Origin: a bacterium
GTDB lineage: Bacteria; Planctomycetota; Planctomycetia; Isosphaerales; Isosphaeraceae
DNA: 64,000 bases
Direction: 5' to 3'
Assembly: GCA_016125085.1 (NCBI GenBank)
Contig: WGMM01000026.1
Location: 62,001-126,000, forward strand
Translations under genes and position numbers: made by a program
In this document: one piece after another, positions 57,559 through 63,888 of the stretch
How positions within the stretch are numbered: position 1 is the first letter of the stretch
How the letters are laid out: each line of letters opens with the position of its first letter
The notes under the pieces: generated by a model
Seen by the model: only the letters and a program-made list of their open reading frames with translations
The model's database searches: none
What the model was told of the DNA's origin: nothing

Positions 57559-58346
57559 CAGTGAGACTCCATCGGAAAGTCGGCATCCACATCAGCCGCG
57601 GCCAGTTCGACGAGGAACGACGAGAACCGGTCGACGAACACGTCCGCCAGCTTCCGCCCTTTTTCCGCCGTCGCCTGGCTCGGGTTGCCTGCCCCGGTGT
57701 TCGTCGTCAGCACGTGCCAGGGGCGGGAATATTCCACCCAGCCTTTTTTGAGCGTCTCCAGCCGCGCCGGCCTCATCGATCCGGCGTCGGCTTCGGCCAT
57801 TTGCACCAGGTCGGGCCGAAGGTGCAGCATCATCGACGTTTCCAGCTCGTCGGCATGGTCGCCGTCGAGATCGTCAAGAACATCTTTGCGGATGTCGGCG
57901 ATCATACGGAACCAGTGGCAGATGAACAGGTGCACGTCAGCCTTGCCGTACCACTCGCGCAGGACCCACTTGAGTTCGTTGCCGCCGTGGCCGTTGAGGA
58001 GCACAAGCTTTTTCACGCCATGCTGTTCCAGCGATTCGACGATATCGCCGATCATCCGCCCCAGGGTCGAAGGGTTCACGTTGATCGTGAGCGGAAACCG
58101 CATCAGGTTCGTCTCGGTGCCGAACGGAATCGCCGGCAGCATCCAGACCGAAGCCCCTTTCGCGACGGCATCCGCACAGGCACGTTCGGCCAGAGCCGTT
58201 ACCTGATAGGTGTCCGTGCCGTAAGGCAGGTGCAGGTTATGGGGCTCGGTGGCGCCCAGCGGCAGCACGGCCACCTGGGGCTTGGGGGCGTCCAGAACGT
58301 GCTTGTAGGTGCTTGCGGCCAGGTCGAACGGTTTGGGGCTGCTCAT
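57558..58346 (-). CDS. Creatininase-family metal-dependent amidohydrolase
   Basis: The 262-residue product has the metal-site pattern of creatininase/MftE-like enzymes: LPLGATEPHNLHLPYGTDT, NGHGGNELKWVLREW and DHADELETSMMLHLRPDLV. It likely cleaves a cyclic or linear amide; the substrate is unknown. The ATG at 58346 is chosen on family length, although it lacks a clear ribosome binding site; a TTG 48 bases upstream is in frame. Its stop overlaps the SCO start, so the two are co-transcribed. Confidence 0.82.
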   Translation of the reverse strand: MSSPKPFDLAASTYKHVLDAPKPQVAVLPLGATEPHNLHLPYGTDTYQVTALAERACADAVAKGASVWMLPAIPFGTETNLMRFPLTINVNPSTLGRMIGDIVESLEQHGVKKLVLLNGHGGNELKWVLREWYGKADVHLFICHWFRMIADIRKDVLDDLDGDHADELETSMMLHLRPDLVQMAEADAGSMRPARLETLKKGWVEYSRPWHVLTTNTGAGNPSQATAEKGRKLADVFVDRFSSFLVELAAADVDADFPMESH

Positions 58347-58554
58347 CGGGGAGGGGCTCGGCGGCAGGTGCTTCGGCAAAACATCACTACCCAATCGTGC
58401 CGATCAGGCAGTAAACTTGGCTTCAATCTTCAAGATACAAATTCGGGGGCCCGCTTCACAAGCGCGGCGAACGTCGCCGTGTCGTCAAGACAGGATCCCC
58501 CGGGCCGATTCGCCAGCATCGGCAAAACGATTCAAGGAAGGCAGAAATTCGCAC

Positions 58555-59784
58555 ATGCGCAGCACCGAAGCCGTCGCCTACTATTTCGACCACGCCGCCG
58601 AAGCATTGGGGCTTTCCGCCAACCTGCGCAAGCTGCTGCTGACGCCTGAACGGAGCATCAAGGTCGAAGTCTCCATCCCGCTCGACGACGGCCAGATCGG
58701 CAACTTCGTCGGCTATCGCGTGCAGCACGACAGCTCGCGCGGGCCCTTCAAGGGCGGCCTGCGCTATCACCACGACGTCGACACCGACGAAGTCGCCGCC
58801 CTGGCCAGCCTGATGACCTGGAAAACGGCCGTGGTCGACGTTCCCTACGGTGGCGGCAAGGGCGGCATTCAGTGCGACCCGAAAGCCCTCAGCCGTAACG
58901 AGCTGGAACGCCTGACCCGCAAGTTCGTGCAGCGCATCCACGACTTCATCGGCCCCAAGATCGACATCCCCGCCCCCGACATGGGCACCGACGGCCAGGT
59001 GATGGCCTGGATCGCCAACGAATACGCCAAGTTCCACGGCTTCGAACCGGGCGTCGTGACCGGCAAGCCGGTCGACCTGCACGGGATCGTCGGCCGCGAG
59101 GAAGCCACCGGCCGTGGCGTGGCCCGGATGGTGCACGAAGTTTACAAGCGAGAGAACAAATCGCCCGTCGGGGCGACCGTCGCCGTGCAGGGTTTCGGCA
59201 ATGTCGGCAGCGCGGCCGCCCGGTTCCTGGCCGAAATGGGTGCGAAGGTCGTGGCCGTGAGCGACGTCACCGGCGGCCTTTACGACGAAAAAGGCCTGAA
59301 CCTGGCCGAAATTGCCGCCCATGTGAAGGCCCGCAAGCCGCTGGCGACTTTTGGCCAGGGCAAGCTGATCGACAATGAAGAGTTGTTGACGCTCCCCGTC
59401 GATATTCTTGTGCCGGCGGCTCTGGGCGACGTGATTCACGAGGAAGTCGCGAAGAAGATCAAGGCCCCACTGATCGTCGAAGGTGCGAACAACCCGACCT
59501 TCCCCGACGCTGACCGGATTCTGCACGAGCGTGGCATTCTCGTCGTGCCCGACATCCTGGCCAACGCCGGCGGCGTGATCGTCAGCTATTTCGAATGGGT
59601 CCAGAACCTGCAGAACTTCCGCTGGACGTTCGACCAGGTCGTGCGCGAGCAGGATTCGAAAATGTCGCAGGCCTTCGAACACGTACACAGCGTGGCCAAA
59701 TCGACGAACGTGTCGATGCGCTTCGCCGCCTTCCGCGTTGCGATCGAACGCGTCGCCCGCGCGACGGAGCTGGGCGGGTATTGA
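58555..59784 (+). CDS. gdhA: Glutamate dehydrogenase
   Basis: The 409-residue product is a Glu/Leu/Phe/Val dehydrogenase with HDSSRGPFKGGLRYH, the catalytic Lys in PYGGGKGGI, the dinucleotide-binding VAVQGFGNVGSAAARFL, and LANAGGVIVSYFEWVQN. It interconverts glutamate and 2-oxoglutarate with ammonia. The layout and length match archaeal and bacterial catabolic-type enzymes; specificity for NAD or NADP is not decided. The ATG at 58555 has AAGGAAGG upstream. A 16-base inverted repeat follows. Confidence 0.9.
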   Translation: MRSTEAVAYYFDHAAEALGLSANLRKLLLTPERSIKVEVSIPLDDGQIGNFVGYRVQHDSSRGPFKGGLRYHHDVDTDEVAALASLMTWKTAVVDVPYGGGKGGIQCDPKALSRNELERLTRKFVQRIHDFIGPKIDIPAPDMGTDGQVMAWIANEYAKFHGFEPGVVTGKPVDLHGIVGREEATGRGVARMVHEVYKRENKSPVGATVAVQGFGNVGSAAARFLAEMGAKVVAVSDVTGGLYDEKGLNLAEIAAHVKARKPLATFGQGKLIDNEELLTLPVDILVPAALGDVIHEEVAKKIKAPLIVEGANNPTFPDADRILHERGILVVPDILANAGGVIVSYFEWVQNLQNFRWTFDQVVREQDSKMSQAFEHVHSVAKSTNVSMRFAAFRVAIERVARATELGGY

Positions 59785-60113
59785 AAGCAAAGATGGCATT
59801 TCGAGCTCGTATTCATGAGCGTCACACCGCGACAGCTCATGAATACGAGCCGGAAGTGTGAGCAATGGGAGAGGTAGCAGATCAGGAATCGCAATTCGAA
59901 TGTAATTTCACGAATTGAGGCATACCCTCTTCATTCACCGACAAACTGTTTCTGCATCTTTCCCTCGAATTCAAATCCACAGATGATGGAATGACCGCCA
60001 CTGACGTGTCCGGCTCATTCGCTTCGCTCGAAATCACCAGAGCCATTGCCAGCTGATTTCGATTGAGCGGGCCTGCGGACAGGTTTCGTTTCCGAATTCT
60101 CGAGGTGCCGACC
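59785..60113. other. Intergenic region after gdhA
   Basis: Contains a 16-base inverted repeat at 59805-59850 (listed separately). The rest is less GC-rich than the flanks, and no gene was recognised. Confidence 0.45.
59805..59850. repeat. Perfect 16-base inverted repeat after gdhA
   Basis: GCTCGTATTCATGAGC at 59805-59820 is exactly complemented at 59835-59850, with a 14-base loop. No T-run follows, so it may be a terminator, an RNA stabiliser or a repeat element. Confidence 0.75.
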
Positions 60114-60648
60114 ATGCTTCGACCGAATCCCCGGGCATTCAGTCGGTTCGTGCCTGTGACAAAAATGCTCTCAGCGTCCTTGCGAATATCGCCCGCACTC
60201 ATGGTGTGTTCGATCATTTTCGGCACGCTTGCACAAACCCCACAGGCGGAATCGACGAAGATCTCGGCCCGGCTGGAAGCGACGGCCACGACCGATTGCA
60301 TCAAGGCGAAGTATTTCCTCAAAAACGAAGGTGCGGACCCCCATCGAGATCGTCTACGGCCACGGCGGAATGGTCCAGGACGTCGTCCCGGAGTTTTATA
60401 CGCAATTCCTGACGATTACCCCGAGCATCGTCAGACGTCCCGGCCGGCGATCGATGATGGCCGACATCCTGACGATCCCGCCCGGCGAAGAGGTGGAATA
60501 CGGAACGTACATCCTGACGAACCCCTTCACCCCGGGGCGTGGCATGTCCGACACCCGCAAGGAATACCTGGAAGGCCGATTCGTGTATCGGGAAGGAGCC
60601 ACGATCGGTCGGACGAAGATCGATGTGAAATCGAACCGGATTGAGTGA
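60114..60648 (+). pseudogene. Exported protein broken by a one-base frameshift
   Basis: Two frames together give one protein of about 177 residues. The first frame has a signal-like stretch (ISPALMVCSIIFGTLAQTPQA) and then ATATTDCIKAKYFLKNEG. The second continues TPIEIVYGHGGMVQDVVPEF and runs to SNRIE. The break is in the C5 run of GGACCCCCATC near 60340; a sixth C would restore NEGADPPIEIVYG. This makes either a homopolymer sequencing error or a recent mutation likely. No family was recognised. GAGG lies nine bases before the ATG. Confidence 0.75.
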
Positions 60649-60926
60649 AAGGTTCTGGCAAACTGATACAGAATTGGTAGCGAAACGGGATTGGCGATCA
60701 CTTGTTGTTAAAGCTTCGTTTCGATAAGATACTCTATGTAGTGGCATGATGCTTGTGGACAATCTACCCGGTTGAATCCATATACGTTTCAATGTCGCAG
60801 TCCTTCAAACAGTCATTCAGAATGGCCAATTCGTCGAAAGTCTCAATGCACTTAGCCATCCTTCGCATGACCATCTAAGTTGTCGACCGGACGATGGAGT
60901 CAGGTGTTTATCTGGGGTGATGTACT

Positions 60927-62264
60927 ATGGCAGCGAATGGTTATATATTCACTCGAACGCCTGAAGGCGAACCATATAGCAAAGACGAAAAGTACGCGCC
61001 GCGAGAACTGTTACAATTAATTTTCAACTCTACCAAAGAAAATGCAGATGGATCACGGCAACTATATTTTGACACAGAACACTATATCTCGCTGCTTACT
61101 TCAGCAATAATTATCAAAGAGCCTTCGACTGAACGAATATTAAACACCGATGATTCAGAATCCATAATTCGATCGGGCTTATATGAGGCAATCTCAAATC
61201 AAAAAGGCAAGCTCTTCAATTACGAGGCACTCAGAGCATCCTTACACAAAAAAGCGAAAGAGTTTTTCTCAAGACCGCAAACACCCTACTCTGTCATAAC
61301 TTCAATTGCGGTTACTAACTTCAAAAAGCCTCGCATCAATACCAGCGACTACACCCTGAGATTTGGGGATTCAAAACAAGTCAACGCCATGTTCAAGACG
61401 ATCGATGACTCCAATCACCATTTATCTGATTATATAGGCAAGCACCAGAGCTGCAAGTTCACACCGCTAACAATCGACACTTCTGGAAGAACCAAATCGG
61501 AAGCATTCCATCTAGCAATGCAATCGGCAGATTTGATCCGGGCGATCTGGACAACCTTTTCAACCAAGGGCTCTTGGAAGTACAACTTTGGCCACCCATC
61601 CATTGATCCAATTACAATAATGCCTTATGGGCCAGCGTTTTTCATATACAATAAATCGAAAAGACGGATGTCGAGTATATTCTGGGTAAACCGAAGCCAC
61701 CCAATCAACCCAAAGTTCAATCAGTTTGATGGCAAGAAACAATGGCCCAATATCGAATCTATCAGACTAAAGGCGATGAGGTCGATCAATAAACAACCAT
61801 ATAAAGACAAGCTGAAACAAATCCTGGTTCGTTACATAAACGCCCTCGATAGCCTCGACCACTCAACTTCTTTCCTTCACTTATGGAGCATCCTTGAAGC
61901 AATAACGATACCAAATACAATGCAGTATGACAAGCTAATCGATCGGGCGTCGCGCCCATTCAACCGCAACAGTCGCCCAATCGCAAAAGAGATACTAAAG
62001 TTAATCCGAACGGAGAGAAACAATCTAACTCATGATGCAGAACTAAAATCCGATGCGACTCATCTAACCTACCATCTCAAACGCGTCATCGATCACCACA
62101 TCCAATCACTTATATTCAACAGCCTAAATGTCGACTCGATTAACGAATACGCGGAAATTCTGGATCTTTCAACTGATACCAATATTTTGCAGAAGAAACG
62201 TCGAATGATTCAAACCATGCTAAAGCGCGAATCTCTGCATAGCTCAACTAAACCACAACCTTGA
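60927..62264 (+). CDS. AT-rich orphan gene with HEPN-type RX4H motif
   Basis: The 445-residue product differs from all its neighbours in base and codon use: it is AT-rich and rich in Asn, Ile, Lys and Ser. The C-terminal third (about 300-400) is helical and contains FLHLWSILEAITI, then ILKLIRTERNNLTHDAELKS. RNNLTH (Arg364-His369) fits the RX4-6H motif, with polar residues after the Arg, of HEPN RNases. No clear domain was recognised in the N-terminal 300 residues. Many HEPN proteins act in phage defence by cleaving RNA. No toxin/antitoxin partner or phage gene is visible beside it. Recent horizontal acquisition is likely. Confidence 0.75.
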   Translation: MAANGYIFTRTPEGEPYSKDEKYAPRELLQLIFNSTKENADGSRQLYFDTEHYISLLTSAIIIKEPSTERILNTDDSESIIRSGLYEAISNQKGKLFNYEALRASLHKKAKEFFSRPQTPYSVITSIAVTNFKKPRINTSDYTLRFGDSKQVNAMFKTIDDSNHHLSDYIGKHQSCKFTPLTIDTSGRTKSEAFHLAMQSADLIRAIWTTFSTKGSWKYNFGHPSIDPITIMPYGPAFFIYNKSKRRMSSIFWVNRSHPINPKFNQFDGKKQWPNIESIRLKAMRSINKQPYKDKLKQILVRYINALDSLDHSTSFLHLWSILEAITIPNTMQYDKLIDRASRPFNRNSRPIAKEILKLIRTERNNLTHDAELKSDATHLTYHLKRVIDHHIQSLIFNSLNVDSINEYAEILDLSTDTNILQKKRRMIQTMLKRESLHSSTKPQP

Positions 62265-62454
62265 CTGAGACTGAATTCGATCATTTGTCTTGGAGCGATC
62301 TTGCGAATCAGAAGTAGTCCATTTCAAGATTCCGCCTGAATCGGTTACGATGCCTCTTTGCGACGTGGCCGCCGGGCAAATGCCCCCCGGAAACGCATCG
62401 CCACCATCAGCACGACAAAACGACACCGAACCAGCCCTCGAACCGATCACACCG

Positions 62455-63888
62455 ATGTCCGACAACCTCGCTTTCGACAATGTCCTCGTCACCCGGTATG
62501 CCTCGAAGGCCATGAGCGGCCTGTGGTCGGCCCAAACCCGCTATGGCCTGTGGCGGCGGCTCTGGCTGTCGCTCGCCAGGGCCGAGAAGGATCTGGGCCT
62601 GCCCATCACCGATGACCAGATCGCCGAACTGGCCGGGCACCTGGACGACATCGACTTCGCCGCCGTCGCCGCTTACGAGAAAAAGCTGCGGCACGATGTC
62701 ATGGCCCACGTGCATGCTTATGGTGACGTCGCGCCCAAGGCCAGGCCCATCATTCACCTGGGTGCCACGAGCTGCTACGTCACCGACAACGGCGACCTGG
62801 TGCAGCTGCGTGATGCCCTGAAGCTGGTGCGCGACACGCTCATCGGCGTGATCGACGCCATGGCCCGGTTCGCCGATCGCTGGAAGAATCAGCCTTGCCT
62901 GGGCTATACGCACTATCAGCCGGCCCAGCTCGTGACCGTCGGCAAGCGGGCCACGCTGTGGTGCCAGGATCTGCTGATGGACCTGCAGGAAGTCGAGCGG
63001 CGCATCGCCGACCTGAAATTCCTGGGCGTGAAGGGCACGACGGGCACCCAGGCGAGCTTTCTGGCCCTGTTCGAAGGCGACGAGACGAAAGTCGTCGATC
63101 TGGAGAAACGGGTCGCCGGCGATTTCGGTTTCGACGCCGTATTGCCTGTCTCAGGGCAGACTTACACGCGCAAGATCGACTCGCAGATTCTCGGCACGCT
63201 CGGCCAACTGGCCGAAACGGCCCACAAGTTCGGGTCGGACATGCGGCTTTTGAGCCACGACCGCGAGCTGGACGAACCGTTCGAATCAGGCCAGATCGGC
63301 TCGTCGGCCATGGCGTACAAGAAGAACCCGATGCGGTCCGAACGGCTTTGCTCGCTGGCCAGGTTCGTGCTGAGCCTGCCCCAGGCCGCGGCGGCAACGG
63401 CGGCGACGCAGTGGCTGGAACGCACGCTGGACGATTCGGCCGTGCGCCGGCTGATCCTGCCCCAGGCCTTTCTGGCGACTGACGCCATGCTGCGGATCTA
63501 TCTGAATGTGGTGCCGGGGATTGTCGTGAATACGGCGATCATCGACCGTAACGTGCGCCGGGAGCTGCCCTTCATGGCGACGGAAAACCTGATGATGGCG
63601 GCCGTGAAGGCCGGTGCGGACAGGCAGGACGTGCATGAGGTGATCCGCGAGAAGTCGATCGAGGCGGTCACAGCCTACAAGGCCGGCGAAACCGGCGAGA
63701 TCGACTTGATGGACAAGCTGCGGGCGACACCGACATTTGCCGGTGTGGATCTGGACGCGGCCCTGAACCCGGCGGAATACGTTGGCCGATCGGCGCGGCA
63801 GGTGGATGATTTCATCGCCCGGGAAGTCGAGCCGGTGCGGAAGCGATATCCGCAATTGCTCAGCCAGTCGGCCGAACTGCATGTCTGA
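62455..63888 (+). CDS. purB: Adenylosuccinate lyase
   Basis: The 477-residue product has the fumarase/aspartase-superfamily signature GQIGSSAMAYKKNPMRSER, the catalytic His in LGYTHYQPAQLVT, and HLGATSCYVTDNGDL at the usual place. It carries out two steps of purine synthesis, releasing fumarate from SAICAR and adenylosuccinate. The length fits the longer eukaryote-like branch. The ATG at 62455 (MSDNLAFDNVLVTRYASKAM) is preferred over a longer frame to 62290. Confidence 0.93.
   Translation: MSDNLAFDNVLVTRYASKAMSGLWSAQTRYGLWRRLWLSLARAEKDLGLPITDDQIAELAGHLDDIDFAAVAAYEKKLRHDVMAHVHAYGDVAPKARPIIHLGATSCYVTDNGDLVQLRDALKLVRDTLIGVIDAMARFADRWKNQPCLGYTHYQPAQLVTVGKRATLWCQDLLMDLQEVERRIADLKFLGVKGTTGTQASFLALFEGDETKVVDLEKRVAGDFGFDAVLPVSGQTYTRKIDSQILGTLGQLAETAHKFGSDMRLLSHDRELDEPFESGQIGSSAMAYKKNPMRSERLCSLARFVLSLPQAAAATAATQWLERTLDDSAVRRLILPQAFLATDAMLRIYLNVVPGIVVNTAIIDRNVRRELPFMATENLMMAAVKAGADRQDVHEVIREKSIEAVTAYKAGETGEIDLMDKLRATPTFAGVDLDAALNPAEYVGRSARQVDDFIAREVEPVRKRYPQLLSQSAELHV

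Follow-up and report, generated by a model that had tools for sequence, protein, structure and literature searches.

PrrC and RloC are anticodon nucleases in which a HEPN domain is fused to an ABC-ATPase, and the defence systems of Planctomycetota are little studied. RNase-active HEPN domains carry an Rx4-6H catalytic motif where helix 3 ends, and the residue following the arginine is polar (usually N, D or H); helix 2, further upstream, contributes an acidic residue to the signature, typically as Ex3[KR] (PMC3710099). The DUF3644 and EC042_2821 HEPN families are associated with restriction-modification (R-M) systems (PMC3710099). Further, Tha is a tail-activated HEPN anti-phage system of 301 aa from S. 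aureus prophages, acting by abortive infection (PMC11087260), and DS-11 is a one-gene DefensePredictor system that combines CBS and HEPN domains (PMC13092281).

The window, which is the whole 64,000-nt stretch of DNA analysed here, contains an intact 445-codon ORF on the + strand (60927..62264; 445 aa, MAANGYIFTRTPEG...), whose extent agrees with near-full-length relatives and whose protein start fits their N-terminal pattern, M-x-x-Y-x-F-W-x-x-P-x-G. As originally predicted, the gene is AT-rich amid high-GC neighbours: it has a GC content of 42% and a GC3 of 46%, the lowest among the ORFs picked across the window, whereas purB has a GC3 of 83% and the glutamate dehydrogenase (GDH) gene upstream one of 80%. 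A promoter and terminator scan, together with an Rfam search, returned nothing exceeding chance.

The tblastn-type and profile searches found 12 near-full-length relatives with 17-29% identity to the window protein, and all-against-all BLASTP links the window protein and these relatives as a single family. The gene had been called an orphan, which holds for the window locus, where it stands alone, but not for the gene itself, as its relatives are diverse. They lie mostly in Planctomycetota genomes; two more occur in metagenome-assembled genomes (L018, Phycisphaeraceae; L019, unclassified) and one is borne on a Shewanella plasmid. The spread is patchy, with matches in 9 of 398 genomes at class level and 6 of 382 at phylum level, counts that take in the window's own genome and some fragmentary matches. 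At most of the other loci, the family gene is AT-richer than its flanks. In addition, stop-interrupted or truncated copies are present in two genomes, G660 (L076:9491-10321) and G523 (L072), consistent with rapid gain and loss of the family gene. There were no relatives among 50,697 phage records, and back-translated pattern scans of viral contigs with the window protein and its relatives, which are not very sensitive, found none either.

The alignment of the 13 proteins (A8; the window protein plus 12 relatives, which within A8 are 17-27% identical to it) has only seven columns that are invariant in 13/13 sequences (G42, Y303, W320, E324, R364, N365 and H369), and the HEPN RNase signature accounts for four of them (E324, R364, N365 and H369). 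The RNNLTH string named in the original prediction can be read directly at residues 364-369 (62016..62033, +), in the helical C-terminus, where R364-N365-N-L-T-H369 is the putative RNase active site at the modelled end of helix 3. All 13 proteins have the Rx4-6H spacing and the polar residue after the arginine, as R364-N365-x3-H369. The upstream acidic residue is E324 (61896..61898, +), which the alignment and the domain model place in helix 2, although it departs from the exact Ex3[KR] spacing. A chance RxxxxH is by itself of little meaning; here, the invariance of R364, N365, H369 and E324 at 17-29% identity indicates that the motif is not due to chance.

These residues lie within a putative HEPN core (residues 293-396; 61803..62114, +), which a low-confidence full-length model and a domain model predict to consist of four long helices and a short insert helix. 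The domain model was built from the C-terminal 176 aa of the L017 relative, with the window sequence included in its alignment, and has a moderate confidence (pLDDT 75, pTM 0.68). Its helices span positions 30-44, 49-64 (containing E61), 71-78, 89-103 (containing R99 and N100, with H104 next) and 112-132. As modelled, the helix order is that of HEPN domains, with the insert between helices 2 and 3, and the motif closes helix 3, ahead of the loop that leads into helix 4. Profile and Foldseek searches had been expected to place the motif inside a HEPN four-helix core; it occupies that position in the model, which has a HEPN-like core rather than a fold lacking one, but no profile or fold match was significant. 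In particular, a Foldseek search of the domain model against the PDB returned nothing at E 0.001, the top HEPN structure being 2hsb at rank 37 (E 9), and its search against viral structures returned no significant match. The full-length AF2 model was too poor for this purpose (pLDDT 50), and its PDB Foldseek matches were discarded as meaningless.

An HHalign comparison of the C-terminal part with the ApeA HEPN alignment put the two RN-x3-H motifs in register at a borderline probability of 5-6%; column-shuffled controls scored as high in 0/300 and 1/150 cases, as compared to 4/150 for the full-length comparison. Moreover, the C-terminal regions of different relatives have sub-threshold profile matches to HEC-08 (6.5e-5), DUF3644 (6.6e-4), PD-T4-2_B (0.0043), DUF4145 (0.016) and RiboL-PSP-HEPN (0.07), none of which is secure and which are interspersed with unrelated weak matches; we read HEC-08 and PD-T4-2_B as HEPN-type from the alignment position. 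Overall, the family very likely belongs to the HEPN superfamily, a judgement made because of the conservation pattern rather than any significant match, and the predicted HEPN RNase is strongly supported by the family-wide invariance of the active-site residues and by their helix placement in the domain model.

Upstream of this core, residues 1-265 (60927..61721, +; boundary approximate) comprise one or more undescribed putative sensor domains, whose conserved columns in A8 include the invariant G42 as well as R205, which is kept at 90% or more. The N-terminal 300 residues had been said to match nothing known, and indeed Pfam, PADLOC, NCBIfam, PHROGs and the PDB sequences offer no match for the N-terminal ~300 residues. 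Searches of Pfam, PADLOC and the PDB sequences with the whole window protein alone were likewise empty, and the family has no secure match in NCBIfam or PHROGs. The conservation of the ~265-aa N-terminus suggests built-in control.

The gene is placed, as first described, between a broken gene and purB, within an insertion flanked on the left by a GDH ORF (58309..59784, +; the protein probably starts inside it and has 409 aa) and on the right by purB (62455..63888, +; ATG at 62455). The spacing between GDH and purB is 2.67 kb in the window, as compared to 45-150 bp in seven genomes of the same family, where the two genes are adjacent as the original prediction of an empty site would have it (loci L026, L027, L029, L030, L031, L033 and L034). 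The family gene is absent from three genomes of the same genus, two of which are 64% and 77% complete, and from more than 30 genomes of the same taxonomic family. Judged by base composition, these absences and the empty site, the locus is a lateral insertion, and a vertical inheritance with normal composition was not found among the relatives. No tRNA that could serve as an integration site is present in the window. A same-genus genome, G393, has 11 kb of other genes between GDH and purB (L045:4292-17956), so that the site seems to have undergone rearrangement within the genus; the gene in front of purB in G394 is a ribD homologue.

A degraded duplicate of the GDH 3′ end (60791..60899, +; 71% DNA identity over 109 nt, E 3e-14) sits 27 bp ahead of the start codon of the HEPN gene, with the last ~40 codons matched in frame apart from one stop, which suggests the scar of a tandem duplication or of an insertion at that end of GDH. 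Just past the GDH stop codon, there is a 24-nt inverted repeat (59797-59858) with 88% complementarity and a 14-nt loop, possibly a terminator-like hairpin. The broken gene, which extends over two frames (60063..60648, +) and also belongs to the inserted stretch, lacks a homologue in any of 39 relatives, and its 3′ half has no Pfam match; it was considered as a partner and rejected, as it has no such homologue and no counterpart beside the family relatives.

The neighbourhoods of the relatives repeatedly contain known defence genes. For example, the L077 family gene is embedded in a type I R-M operon, with hsdS on one side, hsdM on the other and a 4-bp overlap with each, and McrBC is near, while type I R-M genes occur at most 3 kb from the family gene in L017 and L020. 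In L048, tyrosine integrases are on one side of the gene and a type I-E CRISPR-Cas operon (Cas3, Cse1, Cas7 and a WYL regulator) is on the other. In L073, a true ApeA gene, which scores 109 bits for ApeA_NTD1 and 61 bits for HEPN_Apea, follows the family gene at a distance of 50 bp, and a C5 methylase and an integrase lie upstream. In L019, HipA_2 and DUF3037 genes are within 5 kb, a pair that makes up the validated defence system DS-6 (PMC13092281). As a control, the 11 family-carrying genomes have eight HsdM loci, three of them within 3 kb of the family gene, where uniform placement would put an estimated 0.03 or so within 10 kb. By gene content, the relatives cluster with defence systems.

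Two further observations concern these loci. L073:9463-12320 holds two different HEPN-type genes in tandem, and the family gene of L017 is flanked by small unannotated proteins (L017:743-1336 and L017:4813-5532) with RCNLLHG and RCQLVHG, which are HEPN-like Rx4H motifs in proteins with no significant Pfam match.

Ordinary genes surround the window copy and at least four relatives (L018, L049, L074 and L075). The candidate defence function is supported by the context of the relatives, but the window copy itself is outside any defence island. Type I R-M subunits excepted, no recurring partner was found among the relatives' neighbours. The claim that no recognised partner is present was correct: the window copy's neighbours are GDH, the broken gene and purB, and no partner gene recurs beside the relatives, an absence that fits a one-gene system.

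We consider it fairly probable that the gene is horizontally mobile and by itself encodes an anti-phage HEPN RNase working through abortive infection; the defence reading is adopted because the relatives repeatedly occur in known anti-phage gene clusters. In the proposed mechanism, residues ~293-396 would form the HEPN domain, and, on the model of other HEPN RNases, the protein would dimerise so that two R364-N365-H369 sites, together with E324, make up a single metal-independent centre for RNA cleavage. The N-terminal ~265 residues would keep the RNase silent and sense infection. A phage cue would then release the RNase, and the resulting RNA cleavage would stop translation and shut down the infected cell.

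A different source of control would be a type I restriction complex, as in PrrC, with the Hsd proteins silencing the HEPN RNase until phage inhibition of restriction releases it. The overlapping hsdS-hsdM position of the L077 gene and the hsdM genes within 3 kb of the L017 and L020 genes favour such a guard, as does the frequent location of the PrrC and RloC HEPN RNases in R-M operons (PMC3710099). However, the window genome, an incomplete assembly of 60 contigs (93.5% complete), has zero HsdM_N matches and most relatives have no type I genes nearby, so that restriction guarding cannot be the general mechanism; together with the lack of the ABC-ATPase part that PrrC and RloC have, this makes it an unlikely account of the family.

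The same RNase activity could instead serve, with no phage sensing, as the toxin of a toxin-antitoxin (TA) pair or of a plasmid or island maintenance module. HEPN-MNT toxins exist (PMC4621449), and the Shewanella plasmid that carries a family gene also bears several TA pairs; nevertheless, the comparison of neighbour families gave no conserved adjacent antitoxin or MNT gene, the chromosomal copies are single and flanked by housekeeping genes, and the conserved N-terminus again speaks for control within the protein, leaving this reading improbable. Finally, the protein could be a HEPN-like helical nucleotide or RNA binder that is not a nuclease, or have another helical fold in which RNxxxH is a coincidence. 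Such a protein would explain why no fold or profile match is statistically secure, but it is very hard to reconcile with an arginine, asparagine, histidine and upstream glutamate kept in all 13 proteins at correct helix positions; moreover, the Rx4-6H motif is partly or wholly gone from a number of HEPN families regarded as inactive (PMC3710099). We therefore regard it as highly improbable.

Compared with described systems, the anti-phage RNase proposed here shares its layout with ApeA. Both are encoded by one gene of similar length (about 450-490 aa), with an N-terminal part of ~270-300 aa and a C-terminal HEPN domain that has R-N-x3-H and an upstream E, and both are mobile and found near R-M genes. 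In contrast, the N-terminus of the window family does not have the G-x-W-W-L-P opening and the profile similarity is borderline. The window protein, its relatives and the family consensus have no Pfam match to ApeA_NTD1 (PF18862) and none above cut-off to HEPN_Apea (PF18739), while the true ApeA of L073 scores 109 bits for ApeA_NTD1; membership in ApeA was rejected because neither defining domain was found. Tha is likewise a single protein with a C-terminal HEPN R-N-x3-H and an N-terminus with no recognisable domain (PMC11087260); it is prophage-borne, whereas the window copy lies between GDH and purB and matched no phage record.

The resemblance to PrrC and RloC is one of context, a HEPN RNase in or beside a type I R-M operon, as in the three linked relatives (L077, L017 and L020); the window family differs in having no ATPase match in Pfam and the window genome in having no HsdM match. 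DS-11, too, is a HEPN defence protein encoded by one gene and has a putative sensor domain (PMC13092281), but the window family has no CBS domain match; compared by description, the window family may be identical with another of the DefensePredictor HEPN systems. The likeness to the DUF3644 and EC042_2821 families is the sub-threshold match over the motif region of the L020 relative (E 6.6e-4); these families were not matched by the window protein or other members and have another N-terminal architecture. As for HEPN-MNT pairs, the window locus has no adjacent MNT antitoxin gene and no neighbour family recurs, with MNT profiles scanned against part of the neighbours.

If the proposed function is true, these genes extend the known HEPN-effector defence families by one whose sensor architecture is new and which occurs mainly in Planctomycetota; the 13 sequences with clear catalytic residues are a testable set, and the L077 member within a type I R-M operon allows a direct test of whether a HEPN RNase unrelated to PrrC guards restriction. 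Overall, by analogy, the window family resembles ApeA and Tha in working as a single protein with a C-terminal HEPN, and the most fitting description is that of a new HEPN family whose N-terminal architecture is its own, although one of the DefensePredictor HEPN systems may be a relative. More tentatively, and with somewhat more doubt than belief, it may be a new, widely scattered one-gene anti-phage family that PADLOC and Pfam do not contain, its HEPN RNase being controlled by an N-terminal sensor of an undescribed kind; its L077 branch would have been co-opted between hsdS and hsdM as a restriction guard, so that a protein unrelated to PrrC would have arrived at a PrrC-like arrangement.
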